NCBI GenBank assembly: GCA_027627705.1
Contig: CP091242.1
Span: 2,220,677-2,284,676, forward strand
Reading direction: 5' to 3'
DNA from: Hyphomonadaceae bacterium BL14
GTDB taxonomy: Bacteria; Pseudomonadota; Alphaproteobacteria; Caulobacterales; Maricaulaceae
Length of the DNA stretch: 64,000 nt
Part shown: positions 10,459-24,498 of the stretch, piece by piece
Numbering within the stretch: the first letter of the stretch is position 1
How the letters are laid out: the number at the start of each line of letters is the position of its first letter
The notes under the pieces: model-generated
Told to the model about the DNA's origin: nothing
What the model saw: only the letters and a program-made list of their open reading frames with translations
The model's database searches: none
Program-made: the position numbers and the translations under genes

Positions 10459-13107
10459 CTAGAAGCGGGCGCGCAGGGTCACACCGTACGTGCGCGGCTG
10501 GTTCGCATAGGTCGAGAACGAACCCGGCTGCAGCGTCGTCGGGAAGCCCGCCGTGTAGTATTCGTCATTGTTCAGGTTGCGGCCCCACAGCAGCGCCTCG
10601 AGGCCGTTATTGAGGTTGACCCCAAGGCCCGCGTTAAAGGTGCCCACTTGCCGGGTGAGCGTACCGGGCAAGCTGTTGCCAAGGTTCGTTTCCGACTCAT
10701 ACTGGTAATCAGCCCGGACAAAGGCTTGGCCGTAACTGACATCGCGCGTGTACTGGAAGCCGAACGAGCCCGCGAATTCAGGAATGCCGGCGACGGCGAC
10801 ACCGGACAGATCACCTCTGCCATCCGGCACACCGTCGGCCAGATCCTCGGGGCTGCCCGAAACCACCGGGGCACCCGGGAAGTCGTCGAACTCGGCGTCC
10901 ATCCAGATGCCCGACACACTGAGGGTCAGGCCCGGGATCGCAGACGGGCTGATGGCGGCGTCAAATTCCACGCCCCGCGCGCTCTGCTCACCAGCGTTGA
11001 TGACCGCGAACCCGGCCCCCTGGAAGATCGAGGACTGGAAGTCCACAATCGTCTGGTCGAAGAATGCCACGTTCACGAAGCCCCAGTCGAACTGGCTTTT
11101 GACCCCGATCTCGAACGTCTCGGTGATTTCCGGACGCGCGAAGCGCTGGTTGCCCGCCACGCCAAGGGCCTCGGCGGTGTTGACGATGGTGGGCAGGCCG
11201 AGCGCGTTGTCGGCGGCAAGCTGGCCAGCCGCACGCAGGGCGGCCACGTCGGCCGAGGCCGGACGGGTGTCAGGCGTCAGGTTCCAGGACGACGCTTTGA
11301 AACCGCGGGCGAACGACGCATAGACATTGAAATTGTCCGTGAGCTCATAGGCCGCACGCAGCGTGTAAGGCCAGTCAGAGTCGTCGGTCCGCCCGTCTTC
11401 GACGGCGTTCGGGAACGGCGTCATGGCGCTCAGCGGCTGAAGGCCCTGCTGGAACAGGGTGAGCAGCGGGTTGGACAGCGGCGCGCCGCTGCTGGGGAAG
11501 GTAGTGGACGCCGCCTGGATCGCCGCAAACGCCGCCGGGTTGGCGGCTGCAAATGCGCCGACTTGAGCCGGATCGTTAGGATTGGCAACGCCGGCACCTT
11601 GCAGCAGCAAGCCGAAGCCAACCTGAACGAGGTTCAGGTCAGAGAACGGGTTGTTGCGCACAACATTGGTGAAGTCGACCTCTTTCTCGCTCTGGAAATA
11701 GGCGAGGCCGGCCGTCAGCGTCAGGCGCTCGGTGACATCGAAATCAACCTGACCGAACAGCTGCATCTGGCGGTCAGATTGCTCCGCTGTGAAGCGCGTG
11801 CCGCGGCCGGCGCCATAGAACGTGCCGGCGGGGAAGCCGGTCGCCGCCTCGAGCGCGGTGATGGTGCTGGTCGCCGGGTTGGGAATAACCACGCCCGGCG
11901 CGATGGTGATGGTGCCGGTCGCCGTGAGCAGATCCACATAGGGCCGTGCGTCCGCGCCATAGATGCGCGAATCGGTCACTGTCATGTCTTCGTCGGAGAA
12001 GAACGCGCCGAGCAGGAAGAAGGCGCGATTATTCCAGTCACCGGTCAGACGGAATTCCTGGGTGAAGGTCTCCACGTCCAGACCGCGGGTGTTTTCACCA
12101 AGCAGCGCAAGCGTGGTGAAATCGCCTTCGAAGTCGACGAAGTCGTCGTAGATCCGGTAAGCGGTGATCGAGCTGAGCGCCAGATTATCGCTCAGATTCC
12201 AGTCGGCCTGAAGCGATATGCCGGCGTTCTGGATCTTGTTCTCGTTCGCGAAATCACTCGCGATCTGATACTCGAATCCGGCTCCGGCCGACGTCTGGCC
12301 GCCCAGCAGGTTGCGGATCAGCGGTGCCGTGACGCCGTCGATCACCCGGTCGGTGCCGCAGCAACGCTCGTCCAATTCATCCCAGTCGGCAATGAGACGG
12401 AACGAGAGATTATTGGTGGGCGTAAACAGGGCCTGGCCACGCAAGGCCCAGCGGTTGCGGTCATTGAAGTCGCCGCCGGTTCCGAGATTTTCGTAATACC
12501 CGCTGCGGGTATTGCTGCTGCCCGACAGGGAGAAGGCAAGGTTTTCAGTGAGCGGCCCGGTGACCGAGCCCCTGACGATGCGCTGGTTCAAATTGCCCAA
12601 CGTCACCTCGAGGGTGGAGCCAACCTCGAACTGGGGCTCCTGGGTGACGATGCTCACCACGCCAGCCGTGGCGTTTTTCCCGAACAGGGTCGATTGCGGG
12701 CCACGCAGGACTTCGACGCGCTCAATGCCCATCAGGTCGGACAGGGCCGAGCCGGCGCGCGGGCGGAAGACACCATCAATGTAAACGGCAACCGACGGCT
12801 CGATGCCGGGATTGTTCGCCCCATTGCCCTGGCCGCGAATGATGAAGGTCGTATTCGAGCTGCGCTCGAGCTGGCTGACCCGCAGGGACGGAATGACGGA
12901 TTGAAGGTCGAGCGCATCCACGATCTGTGCGTTCTGGATTGTCTCGGCCTGCACCACGGTCACCGCGATAGGCACTTCCTGCAAGGTCTGTTCGCGCTTT
13001 TGCGCGGTCACTGTGATGACATCGACCTGCGCTTGGGCGGCAGTGGTGACGAGTCCAGCGGCCAGTGCGGTTGCGCCAAGCGCGGCCGCTTTGGTAAATC
13101 GGTTCAT
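10459..13107 (-). CDS. TonB-dependent outer membrane receptor
   Basis: The 882-residue precursor has a signal peptide (to about residue 26, AAQAQ), then a TonB-box-like start [22 protein letters not shown], a plug domain with [20 protein letters not shown], and a 22-strand-type barrel ending in the outer-membrane signature VTLRARF with terminal Phe. The VTAQKREQ type is abundant in Caulobacterales, sphingomonads and relatives and usually imports sugars, siderophores or plant compounds; the ligand cannot be told. ATG 13107 is preceded by GGAGG at 8 bases and is preferred over 13143. It is monocistronic: a strong terminator follows and about 210 non-coding bases precede it. The nearby PQQ dehydrogenase hints at organic-carbon uptake, an inference only. 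Confidence 0.93.
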
Positions 13108-13190
13108 TCGGGCTTCCTCCCCCTGATGATGATGACGGGGCAACCGTGGGCCGGTTGTTCTCCCGCACGCTGCAAACCCTAAGCGGGCTT

Positions 13191-15019: not shown

Positions 15020-15119
15020 ACTGCGCGCGAGGACTGACTGGCGTTTCATTCGTGAAAGGTGTTCACTTCCGTTCCTGACGACTCGCCAGCTCAAGGCGGG
15101 CGCAAGGGGGAGGACATTG

Positions 15120-16388
15120 ATGCTCAATAGGATCCTGATTGGCGCGCTGGCACTGGTACTGGCCGCCGTCATCGCCGGCACCGGCTGGTATTACCGGCCC
15201 TGGTCGCCCTATTCGCCTGCCAGCATTCGGGCCATGGACGATCCGGATGCCTATCCGCAGACCTTCCAGCGCCTGGACTCCATCCTGCCCTCGCGCCCCA
15301 TCGCGGCGACAGCGCCTGCGCCCTTGCCGCGCGCCGTCACGCCGCTTGAGGTGTCCTATGCGTGGATGGGCGAAGAAAAACGCCTCGAGACCTATCTCGA
15401 AGAAGCCGGCGTCATCGGCCTGACAGTGTTGCATGACGGGGTCGTCACGGCGCAGGAATTCCGCCTGGGTGCCGATTCCGGGACGCGCTTCACCTCCTGG
15501 TCGGTGGCCAAAACCGTTGTCGCCGTACTGATCGCCAAGGCGATGGAGGACGGGCTGATCGACAGCCTTGATGATCCGGCTGGTCAGTACGCGCCGCAAT
15601 TTGCCGGAACCGATTATGGCGCGGTGAGCCTGCGCCACTTGCTGATGATGTCGGCGGGAGTGGATTTCAACGAGGAGTACTCGCCCGAGCGGCCGTCCGA
15701 CGTGCGCCCGCTTTTTTTCAATGCCTTCATTCTGGGGCGCAATGTGGATGCGATGGTCGGCGAGATCGCCAGCAATCGCGCGCCCGGCGAGGACATGCAT
15801 TATGTCAGCCCCAACTCCCATGTGCTGTCTGCGGTGGTGCGCGCGGTGTATCGCGCGCCGCTGGCTGAGATCGTCGAGCGCGAACTGTGGGCACCGCTGG
15901 GCATGACGGGTGAGGCCAGCTGGCTGCAGAACCTGGCCGGGGATCGTGGCGTGCCCATCGGCTATTGCTGCCTGCAGGCGACCAGCGAGGACTATGCCCG
16001 CTTCGGCCAGTTCCTGTTGCAGAACGGGATGTGGAACGGGGCGCGCATGCTGTCAGAAGGCTTTGTGGAGAGGGCGAGCACGCCCAATACGCCCTTTCAG
16101 GAGCCGGGGGCGACGCCCTATCCCGGCCGGGGCTATGGCCTGCATGTCTGGGTGCCCGAAGACCATGACGGGGAGTTCTATGCGGCGGGCGTGTTCGGCC
16201 AGTATATCTGGGTCGACCGGCGGCGCGGCGTGGTGATCGCGATGAATGCCGGCGATCCGGGTTTCGCTGAGCGGTATTTTGAGTCCGCCGCGGTGTTTCG
16301 GGCGATCGCGGAGCATGTCTCTCCGCTGGTGCCTCGGACCGGTCTTGCATCCGTTGATGATGACGGCGAAGGCGGGATCGAGCCGTGA
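15120..16388 (+). CDS. Membrane-anchored serine hydrolase, class C beta-lactamase fold
   Basis: An N-terminal membrane span (residues 2-26) is followed by a beta-lactamase/PBP-like hydrolase domain with the nucleophile motif SWSVAKT (SxxK) near residue 126, a YxN-like YVSPNSH motif in place of the second box, and a late HVWVPEDHDGEFYAAGVFGQ region corresponding to the third box. Such proteins are esterases, peptidases or 6-aminohexanoate-dimer-hydrolase relatives more often than drug-resistance enzymes. TTG at 15117 and ATG at 15120 are adjacent; GGGGGAGG just before supports this position. The stop overlaps the GTG start of the GMC oxidoreductase gene, so the two are co-translated. Confidence 0.85.
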   Translation: MLNRILIGALALVLAAVIAGTGWYYRPWSPYSPASIRAMDDPDAYPQTFQRLDSILPSRPIAATAPAPLPRAVTPLEVSYAWMGEEKRLETYLEEAGVIGLTVLHDGVVTAQEFRLGADSGTRFTSWSVAKTVVAVLIAKAMEDGLIDSLDDPAGQYAPQFAGTDYGAVSLRHLLMMSAGVDFNEEYSPERPSDVRPLFFNAFILGRNVDAMVGEIASNRAPGEDMHYVSPNSHVLSAVVRAVYRAPLAEIVERELWAPLGMTGEASWLQNLAGDRGVPIGYCCLQATSEDYARFGQFLLQNGMWNGARMLSEGFVERASTPNTPFQEPGATPYPGRGYGLHVWVPEDHDGEFYAAGVFGQYIWVDRRRGVVIAMNAGDPGFAERYFESAAVFRAIAEHVSPLVPRTGLASVDDDGEGGIEP

Positions 16389-23047: not shown

Positions 23048-23515
23048 ATGGACATCAATATGGGCCTGTCGAAAGACCAGCGCGAAACCATGGCCAAGGC
23101 CGTGCTGGCGCTGCTGGCTGACACCTACGCGCTGTATTTCAAGACCCACGCCTATCACTGGAACGTGACGGGACCGCGCTTCCACGATCTGCACGCCATG
23201 TTCGAGGCCCAGTACACAGAGCTGTGGGCGGCCACCGACGAGATTGCCGAGCGCATCCGCGCGCTGGGCGTACTGGCGCCGGTGTCCTATGACGAGATGG
23301 CGGCTGCGGCCAGCATCAAGCATGACGCCAAGACCCCGGACGCCAACGCCATGCTGGCCAATCTGGTGGAGGGCCACGAGCAGGTGGTGCGCACCGCGCG
23401 CAAGGCGCTCAAGCTCGCCGAGGAACATGGCGATGAAGCCACCAGCGATCTGGTCGCCCCGCGCATCACCGCCCACGAAAAAACCGCCTGGATGCTGCGC
23501 GCCACGCTGGGCTGA
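23048..23515 (+). CDS. dps: Dps family ferritin-like DNA-protection protein
   Basis: This 155-residue mini-ferritin stores iron and protects DNA under starvation or oxidative stress. The inter-subunit ferroxidase ligands can be assigned: H37 in AYHWNVTG, H49, E53, D64 and E68 in AATDEIAERI, matching the spacing of known Dps proteins. The N-terminal tail is short with few lysines, so DNA binding may be weak. GAAGGAGG upstream gives a strong ribosome site, and a TATAGA at 23004-23009 is a possible -10. A good intrinsic terminator follows at 23540, so it is probably transcribed alone. Confidence 0.94.
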   Translation: MDINMGLSKDQRETMAKAVLALLADTYALYFKTHAYHWNVTGPRFHDLHAMFEAQYTELWAATDEIAERIRALGVLAPVSYDEMAAAASIKHDAKTPDANAMLANLVEGHEQVVRTARKALKLAEEHGDEATSDLVAPRITAHEKTAWMLRATLG

Positions 23516-23597: not shown

Positions 23598-23705
23598 AAA
23601 AGAAAAGGGCCGGCCCCGCGGATCGCGGTGACCGGCCCAGTTTAGCATACCCGTTCGGGGAGGAGACGGTATGCAAAAGGGGAAGGACGAACGTGTCGCC
23701 ATTCG
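23598..23705 (-). ncRNA. Putative small regulatory RNA with anti-Shine-Dalgarno loop
   Basis: On the minus strand, a promoter-like pair (see 23712-23740) is followed by about 108 bases ending in an intrinsic terminator. The terminator is a stem GGGCCGG/CCGGCCC (23632-23638 with 23607-23613) with an inner CCGCG/CGCGG stem, then TTTTCTTTT. Before it, GCATACC and GGTATGC (23645-23674) form a hairpin with one bulged base and an 11-base loop reading CTCCTCCCCGA, which is complementary to ribosome binding sites. A second C-rich stretch, GTCCTTCCCC, precedes it. Alphaproteobacterial sRNAs of the alpha-r14 and Cuckoo type expose CCUCCUCCC in loops in the same way. A 237-base ORF covers this stretch and stops just before the terminator, but the structure favours RNA. 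The remaining bases up to the DinB start hold nothing else I can support. Confidence 0.65.
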
Positions 23706-23711
23706 GGGCTG

Positions 23712-23740
23712 TATATGCGCAGGTGCCCGAGGGGATTCAA
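23712..23740 (-). promoter_or_regulatory. Sigma-70-type promoter of the small RNA
   Basis: On the minus strand TTGAAT (23740-23735) and CATATA (23717-23712) are separated by exactly 17 bases. A start about 7 bases downstream (near 23705) would give an RNA of about 108 bases ending at the intrinsic terminator. The match to TTGACA/TATAAT is 4 of 6 at each box or near it, so the assignment depends on the downstream structure. Confidence 0.5.
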
Positions 23741-24000
23741 GGCGGGTTCGCGAATAGCCGCCATGCAAAATCGCCGCACTGCAACAATGGTGTCAGATGT
23801 CTGCCGCATAGCCGTCACAAAGCGGCGCTGACGGTCTGACCGGGCGGGTCCGGGCCCAGCCGCGGCACCGGGCCGCACCCCGTCAGAGCGCGTCGAGACC
23901 GGCTTTCAGGACCACAAGACGCTGAGGGGCTGTCGCCTCACAGATCATGATAGGGTATGGCGGTATCTGACGGTTCAATGACGTGAAGGATGTCTCACGC

Positions 24001-24498
24001 GTGCTCGACCACTTCAAGCGCTTCGCCGCCTACAATGCCTGGGCCAATGCCCGGCTTTACGACGCCGCCACAGCGCTCAAGGATTTTGAGCGCAAGCGGG
24101 ATGTGAAAGCGTATTTCCGCAGCCTGCATGGCACGCTGAGCCATGTTCTGGTGGCGGACCGGATCTGGCTGCGCCGCCTGACCGGCGAGGGCGAAGCGCC
24201 CACACGGCTGGATGAAGAGCCCTACGCCCTGTTCGAGGATCTGCGCGCCGCGCGCGAGGCCGAGGACCAGCGCCTGAGCACCTATGTCGCGGGCCTGAGT
24301 ATGGACGATCTGGAGCGGGTTCTGGAGTACGCCAATACGCGCGGCGAGGCGAAGGCGCTGCCGGTGAAGATCATCCTCACCCATGTGTTCAATCACCAGA
24401 CCCATCATCGCGGTCAGGCGACCCACATCTTGCGCCAGCTGGGCGTGGCCGAGCCGCCGGCGCTGGACCTGCTCTATTTCGCGCTGCCGTCAGGCTGA
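24001..24498 (+). CDS. DinB family four-helix metal-binding protein
   Basis: This 165-residue protein has the DinB/YfiT fold: YNAWANARLYDAA in helix 1, the first ligand His in LHGTLSHVLVADRIWL, and the pair of His in HVFNHQTHHRGQATH. Members are putative thiol transferases or damage-inducible hydrolases, mostly uncharacterised. GTG at 24001 (VLDHFKRFAAYN) matches where family proteins usually begin and has GAAGGA about 10 bases upstream. The frame extends six more codons to GTG 23983, which has no ribosome site. It stands alone between the small RNA and the convergent DUF1499 gene. Confidence 0.86.
   Translation: MLDHFKRFAAYNAWANARLYDAATALKDFERKRDVKAYFRSLHGTLSHVLVADRIWLRRLTGEGEAPTRLDEEPYALFEDLRAAREAEDQRLSTYVAGLSMDDLERVLEYANTRGEAKALPVKIILTHVFNHQTHHRGQATHILRQLGVAEPPALDLLYFALPSG

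Follow-up and report, generated by a model that had tools for sequence, protein, structure and literature searches.

The window analysed here (the whole 64-kb stretch of DNA) carries a predicted small RNA (sRNA) gene of about 108 nt on the minus strand (23598..23705). Three neighbouring genes were scanned for domains (an aminotransferase, dps and DinB); the ferritin-like dps (23048..23515, plus strand, PF00210) lies tail-to-tail with the sRNA, and the gene for a DinB-family protein (23983..24498, plus strand, PF05163) is divergent from it. Direct reading of the minus strand from promoter to terminator confirmed the layout put forward in the original prediction, namely a promoter, a C-rich part, a hairpin with its loop and a terminator. 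The −35 hexamer TTGAAT (23735..23740), whose TTG is kept in the g1 relatives displayed, is separated by 17 bases from the −10 hexamer CATATA (23712..23717), and CATAT or a similar hexamer is found in many loci of the family. Counting 7 bases behind CATATA, the sRNA is predicted to start near 23705. It then comprises the 5′ C-rich stretch GTCCTTCCCC (23679..23688), a degenerate second anti-Shine-Dalgarno (anti-SD) motif with motifs at the equivalent place in relatives; the anti-SD hairpin GCATACCGTCTCCTCCCCGAACGGGTATGC (23645..23674; arms GCATAC..GTATGC); a TAAACT spacer; and an intrinsic terminator (23598..23638) made up of a stem (23638-23607) and the T run TTTTCTTTT (23606-23598), all on the minus strand. 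The loop of the hairpin holds the motif CTCCTCCCC (23657..23665, minus strand), which is complementary to GGGGAGGAG and is kept in relatives.

The 108-nt transcript folds with a predicted energy of −47.3 kcal/mol vs −32.1 kcal/mol for shuffled sequences (z −5.1; 0/200 shuffles as good). Neither the focal promoter nor the terminator appeared in the output of a simple consensus scan, in our reading because the scan rules cover neither a −10 hexamer with a final A nor a bulged terminator stem; the case for the sRNA therefore rests on comparison.

DNA similarity at E ≤ 1e-5 was detected in 17 of the 61 genomes searched (own included), including 12/15 genomes of the focal genus. The covariance model R1 matched 14/15 genomes of this genus and 87/137 genomes of the family in 16 of its 19 genera (E ≤ 0.1, at which the weaker matches are unproven); the focal sRNA scored 105 bits with R1, of which it is itself a part. 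R2, a model rebuilt from 64 sequences, many of them from the very genomes on which it was run, matched 49 of the 50 family rows among those listed in an order-wide draw of 249 genomes, G019 being the row with no match; a few of these matches were weak, at E 1e-7 to 1e-4 (G035, G154 and G107 near 1e-4). The exact hairpin pattern was present in 10 loci, from Oceanicaulis (Maricaulaceae in the NCBI taxonomy), Alkalicaulis, Marinicauda, Hyphobacterium and further bins, including one labelled Rhodobacterales. On the basis of these contigs, we assign the window to the family Maricaulaceae. CTCCTCCCCGA was present in all 18 first relatives aligned, which were anchored on this motif in the alignment but had been found by whole-query similarity, and CTCCCC occurred in 65/66 rows of alignment A2, that is, in 65/65 sense rows, the exception being the antisense row L130:1973-2051. 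This antisense match was dropped, as were L317 (terminator cut off) and L277 from alignment A4; the counts over 64 family loci given below exclude L134 and L137 (R1 matches to a different RNA) and L139 and L090-L099 (repeats or similar loci).

While the loop is almost invariant across the family, the stems change, and both were checked for compensatory changes, as had been suggested at the outset. Among 63 distinct sequences, 19/20 stem pairs showed two-sided changes (7/7 in the anti-SD hairpin and 12/13 in the terminator), with 217 two-sided cells vs 50.7 in shuffles (0/500 shuffles reaching this value; slid controls at most 32), in an alignment that was fitted to the model and so leans towards it. 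In the free MAFFT alignment A1, 8/20 pairs were two-sided, with 20 cells vs 4.0 in shuffles, beyond any of 500 shuffles. This conservation among relatives is the deciding evidence that the element is real. Together with the fold and the kept loop, the covariation supports the proposal of an unannotated minus-strand sRNA with an exposed anti-SD loop; exposure in the predicted fold and conservation among relatives are the features by which we class it as an anti-SD sRNA. From these sequence comparisons, we conclude that the locus almost certainly harbours a real, uncatalogued sRNA gene.

A class-wide search with R1 returned matches in 57/385 genomes at E ≤ 0.1 (own included). The 29 places that were read were mostly terminator matches and none had dps within 1.5 kb; four (L061, L062, L065 and L075) hold a C-rich motif resembling the focal one, and none of the 29 was counted as a member. 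Separately, G116 and G118 contain a hairpin with a ACTCCTCCCCGG loop and a terminator behind an apparent coding-gene end (L134, L284), which is distinct from the dps-linked RNA present in the same genomes.

The family layout combines a core hairpin carrying YUCCUCCCC, or a sequence close to it, with a downstream terminator, the two often being separated by a spacer of the A(G/A)ACT type. The C-rich stretch before the hairpin, to which attention had been drawn from the focal letters, proved to be meaningful, as many relatives possess a further UCCUCCCC-like motif, either at this place or in the hairpin after it, and two anti-SD motifs are present in many lineages of the family. In genera g7 and g9, the second hairpin exposes CTCCTCCCC or one of its variants in its loop. 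An upstream GTCCTCCCC, placed in a 5′ hairpin, is usual in g2, g8, g12 and g19; at the place of this upstream motif, g11 has CTTCCCC and the focal genus the degenerate GTCCTTCCCC or a shorter stretch. In G119, two neighbouring copies of the sRNA (L138, 1735-1821 and 2001-2088) lie beside dps.

Anti-SD sRNAs under the control of LsrB/VtlR are known to adjust nutrient uptake in rhizobia, Agrobacterium and Brucella. Upstream of the focal promoter lies a conserved LysR-type, LsrB/VtlR-like box, GGCG-ATTTT-GCATGGCGGCTAT (23754..23775, minus strand), which the original prediction had overlooked. Its GCAT-GGC-GG-CTA-T portion occupies positions −61 to −49 relative to the predicted start, and the commonest letters in the family are GCAT-AGC-TG-ATA-T (the choice of GCAT copy slightly favours this result). 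GCAT[AG] is present upstream of the sRNA in 64/64 family loci (10.2 expected from mononucleotide shuffles), GC[AG]-N5-GCAT[AG] in 62/64 (0.31 expected from the same shuffles; L110 and L114 lack it), the relaxed box GCAT-N4-G-N3-T in 46/64 (1.17 expected) and the exact consensus GCAT-N3-TG-N3-T in 11/64 (0.24 expected). Among the 39 loci in which a −10-like string was recognised by the script, 30 have a distance of 49 from the box to the −10. In the 64-kb window there are two occurrences of the loose box pattern, a number also reached by 13/100 shuffles; the loose box alone therefore proves little, and its conservation is the evidence.

As described in the available parts of the published accounts, the LsrB/VtlR consensus is GCAT-N3-TG-N3-T, and the LsrB site of the S. 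meliloti PabcR1 promoter, CTTGAC-N17-CTATAT, spans −61 to −49 (PMC8844928, PMC7486931); the focal box has GG where this published consensus has TG. The focal TTGAAT-CATATA also resembles the RpoH1 consensus CTTGAA-N16-CCTATAT given in the part of PMC8844928 available to us. Judged by its letters, the focal promoter would be sigma70-like and possibly heat-shock-like. That an LsrB/VtlR-like regulator drives the sRNA is, on the box and its position, an evenly balanced proposition.

The focal RNA matches no Rfam family at cut-off, and no match at cut-off was obtained in the 20 + 20 relative loci tested. Membership of alpha-r14 (RF02344), the likeness proposed from the initial reading, was not borne out by the covariance check: the focal RNA scored 22.0 bits vs a cut-off of 58.8, with the match extending over part of the dps terminator, and it has one CTCCTCCCC hairpin and a degenerate C-rich stretch vs three CCUCCUCCC hairpins. 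Per the accessible part of its description, NfeR1/alpha-r14 is alike in its anti-SD motif in hairpin loops, sigma70-like promoter and upstream LysR-type box, and represses by covering the ribosome site; in addition to its three hairpins, it differs in the LsrB box, which is TGCA-N6-GCAT at −72 to −60 (PMC10746234). The focal RNA probably works like alpha-r14, though it is not a member.

Other known systems share some features with the focal RNA, again as far as the portions of the sources at hand describe them. The LsrB/VtlR-activated AbcR1 (alpha-r15)/VrsA RNAs have anti-SD motifs and a box at −61 to −49 (PMC8844928, PMC7486931), the place of the focal box as counted from the predicted start; the focal RNA differs from them in the GG of its box and in having no Rfam match at cut-off. 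The Cuckoo/CcsR cluster of Rhodobacter has anti-SD hairpins, a link to stress and an RpoHI/HII promoter, and the focal promoter carries CTTGAA; the Cuckoo/CcsR RNAs, however, form an operon with the DUF1127 gene ccaF1 and are processed from it (PMC3927594, PMC10253847), whereas the focal gene encodes a single RNA between dps and dinB and no DUF1127 gene is present among the three focal neighbours scanned (aminotransferase, dps and DinB). GsrN of Caulobacter pairs a C-rich loop with G-rich mRNA leaders under stress but has six tandem C, is activated by sigmaT and has homologs usually near GSR genes, with BLAST matches restricted to Caulobacteraceae in the part of that report available (PMC5869019). 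Among the literature matches listed, no paper deals with a Maricaulaceae or dps-linked sRNA.

The alternative that survives best concerns origin: the focal RNA could be a divergent copy of alpha-r8 (suhB/MmgR/SisA) that came to sit behind dps and gained a LysR-type box, making it a sibling of SisA that is maybe sponged likewise. We consider this a real possibility, albeit the less probable course. In the accessible part of their description, the alpha-r8 RNAs (MmgR/suhB; SisA-D of Caulobacter) are alike in their UCCUCCC anti-SD core and an ACU(U) before the terminator, but have no conserved motif upstream of sisA-D and usually lie beside an FGase gene, not dps (PMC12559287). The focal AAACT before the terminator (AGACT in relatives) fits the AgACUU of suhB. 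Membership of alpha-r8 (RF00519, suhB) was nonetheless rejected, the focal RNA reaching just 13.5 bits vs a cut-off of 41; moreover, the UUUCCUCCCU core of alpha-r8 is single-stranded behind a weak hairpin, and the focal CTCCTCCCC is presented by a strong hairpin, in its loop. The suhB model gave no match at E ≤ 1 in four further family loci (L009, L118, L124 and L286), and the best suhB match of the focal genome is weak (27.9 bits) and lies elsewhere than the sRNA locus. Canonical alpha-r8 genes scored over the cut-off in 14/136 family genomes; none of the 14 has the box (relaxed box, 0/14) and none has dps within 1.5 kb. Two genomes (G017 and G034) carry both a focal-type RNA and a canonical alpha-r8 as separate genes, which also speaks against this origin.

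Evidence in favour of an alpha-r8 origin comes from RNAs beyond the family. The weaker order-wide matches of R2 led to family f2, where an sRNA-like unit comprising GATTGGGCGTTTCCTCCCC and a GCAT box lies next to aminotransferase-dps at L277, L281 and L283. The pattern TGCA-N5-GCAT-N80-110-TCCTCCCC was found in 46/249 genomes of the order (47 places) vs 1 for the reversed control, and the focal genome has no match to this strict pattern. These 46 genomes belong to f2 (26), f1 (10) and f3 or f4 (10). One of the ten f3/f4 matches was accepted (L292, in f4); the six f3 matches have letters that suggest chance hits in coding sequence, and the other f4 matches that were read look unlike the focal RNA. 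A full dps match is nearby in 11/26 of the f2/f4 loci and a partial one at L292, the exact consensus box is present in 9/26 and the relaxed box in 16/26. Most of these RNAs have two motifs, TTCCTCC in a hairpin and then TTTCCTCCCC; L277, L281, L283 and L292 have a single motif. The similar box, the UCCUCC motifs and the seat behind dps of the f2 RNAs had all been overlooked in the original prediction. The suhB model aligns in register with each of the four f2/f4 RNAs on which it was run, at scores below its cut-off of 41 (L292, 34.3 bits; L281, 28.4; L305, 26.5; L300, 24.8), and R3, a model built from 24 f2/f4 RNAs, also recovers alpha-r8 RNAs from other parts of the class (L321, L329, L334 and L337, 60-69 bits). 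R3 has no match in the focal genome, however; the link between the two groups therefore rests on seat, box and motif and not on the model.

R2 matches in genus g22 of f4 (L271-L275) were set aside as a different RNA, since these hairpins lie just behind a coding gene. Around position 1500 of these loci, a hairpin, ATCCTCCCCGAT, and a terminator directly follow a coding gene whose product we read as ending in ..LAGYN; this is perhaps a 3′UTR-derived anti-SD RNA.

The position of the sRNA raises a second alternative, namely regulation of dps in cis, by antisense or read-through, with the loop merely part of a two-way termination region. A tail-to-tail seat with dps is seen in 36/64 family loci, which favours it; yet the sRNA stops short of the dps terminator and shares no bases with dps itself, and 28/64 loci have no dps within 1.5-2 kb (the flanks read in both counts, some cut by contig ends), among them every one of L117-L133 (17 loci; g2, g8, g11, g12, g18 and g19). 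The loop, the terminator and the box persist in loci that have no dps, which argues that the RNA is an independent unit, and cis regulation of dps is accordingly very improbable. The DinB gene is near the sRNA in just 5/64 family loci, all close relatives. Many of the dps-less loci (L118, L120-L124 and L126-L132) have ATTAAC(C/G) or ATTAA shortly behind the sRNA terminator, which resembles a CtrA half-site or a neighbouring promoter.

The coding potential of the locus was assessed on both strands. Across 14 loci, the focal one among them, the minus-strand frame of 78 aa, from which a dual-function RNA had been suggested, is not kept: in L006 and L009 a stop codon interrupts it ahead of the hairpin, in L010 and L011 it terminates two codons sooner, and it is open in L002-L005, with its upstream letters little kept. 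On the plus strand, GGGGAGGAG-N5-ATG resembles a ribosome site and start in many relatives, and the ORF behind it spans 2-8 codons in L008, L010, L011 and L041 and is startless in ten rows. Hence a short protein, encoded either by the 78-aa minus-strand ORF or by a plus-strand ORF behind GGGGAGGAGACGGTATG, is hardly credible even with so good a ribosome site and ATG in many relatives, as neither frame is kept and the stem changes are compensatory. Since the overlapping frames are not kept, we regard the locus as an RNA gene.

Our preferred reading is of an RNA that acts in trans, and we searched for ribosome sites complementary to its loop. GGGGAGGA-N4-12-ATG occurs at 18 sites in the focal genome (one being the sRNA gene itself) vs 1 for the reversed pattern, a control that ignores the general G-richness of ribosome sites. 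CTCCTCCCCG showed no clear enrichment (11 sites vs 7 for the reversed pattern), and bare GGGGAGGA was not enriched in the 64-kb window (4 vs 2.85 expected). Nine of the 17 non-self GGGGAGGA sites (genome G000) are not claimed as targets: three precede copies of one transposase-like ORF and six precede ORFs of ≤106 aa (L141, L142, L143, L145, L154 and L155). The three transposase-like copies (G000:C1:9086, 1390471 and 2864812; L140, L147 and L156; 326 aa read) are identical in the stretch displayed, each behind GGGGAGGACGACGCATG. In the 25-nt leaders of the 49 window ORFs, the loop complement reaches 8 at most. Two GGGGAGGA ribosome sites in the window, before a TonB-receptor-like gene (13105-13122, minus strand) and before a 422-aa gene (15107-15122, plus strand), each hold an 8-nt complement of the sRNA loop.

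The longest loop complement, the 14-nt TTCGGGGAGGAGAC, precedes the gene for a HapK-like protein (PF11639), and a 12-nt complement precedes that for an AMP-binding (acyl-CoA-synthetase-like) enzyme (PF00501); by a rough estimate, one 12-nt match per genome is unsurprising given the GGAGG core, which leaves the 14-nt match as the notable one. In the focal genus, the HapK-like gene is present in 9/15 genomes and the AMP-binding enzyme gene in 14/15, and at least GGGAGGA is kept in 9/9 and 14/14 of the respective orthologous leaders (four read by eye). The complement lengths are 14, 12, 12, 10, 10, 9, 9, 9 and 8 in the HapK leaders (the last, L378, by eye) and 13, 12, 12, 12, 11, 10, 10, 8, 8, 8 and 7 in the AMP-binding leaders, three more of which (L387, L388 and L391) have GGGGAGGA when read by eye; for the leader L383, the ATG used by the script lies within the spacer. 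We fetched 60 target sites, 41 of them non-self sites of genus g1 among the matches listed and 19 from three other genera. Recurring GGGGAGGAGA leaders precede genes that we read as TonB-receptor-like (4 genomes), sodium-transporter-like (4) and bile-acid-symporter-like (2), and the recurring predicted targets differ between species groups. As leads, we propose the HapK-like and AMP-binding genes of this genome and the TonB-receptor-like and sodium-transporter-like genes of relatives as predicted targets.

The sRNA probably acts in trans through its anti-SD loop. In the model that we favour with reasonable, if somewhat lower, confidence as a whole, the locus encodes a trans-acting, box-activated anti-SD sRNA that represses uptake and metabolism mRNAs. 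A LysR-type activator of the LsrB/VtlR kind would bind at −61 to −49, on the box GCAT-N3-(T)G-N3-T, and bring RNA polymerase to a promoter of sigma70-like and possibly heat-shock-like type. The sRNA would display CUCCUCCCC in a strong hairpin, and its loop may pair with the G-rich Shine-Dalgarno sites (GGGGAGGAG) of mRNAs close to their start codons, keeping ribosomes off and so lowering the translation of several metabolism and uptake mRNAs. This mode of action is of a known kind; as far as the Rfam comparison and the literature matches listed show, the lineage, the seat and the combination are new.

The locus thus places a promoter box and a loop like those of known regulator-sRNA pairs in a marine lineage, beside a stress gene and in an RNA that falls in no Rfam family at cut-off, which bears on whether the pairing of regulator and sRNA is ancestral. 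It may also be a case of a promoter box, a neighbour gene and a seed outlasting the rest of an RNA. More speculatively, and somewhat against the odds, there could be an old circuit spanning the whole (GTDB) order, in which an LsrB/VtlR-like LysR regulator drives a dps-seated anti-SD sRNA of alpha-r8 stock, the box, the seat and the anti-SD letters having been kept across at least two families while the body and stems were rebuilt. If this were true, the rhizobial LsrB/VtlR-AbcR/NfeR1 system would be one branch of a class-wide wiring from oxidative or nutrient stress to uptake genes.
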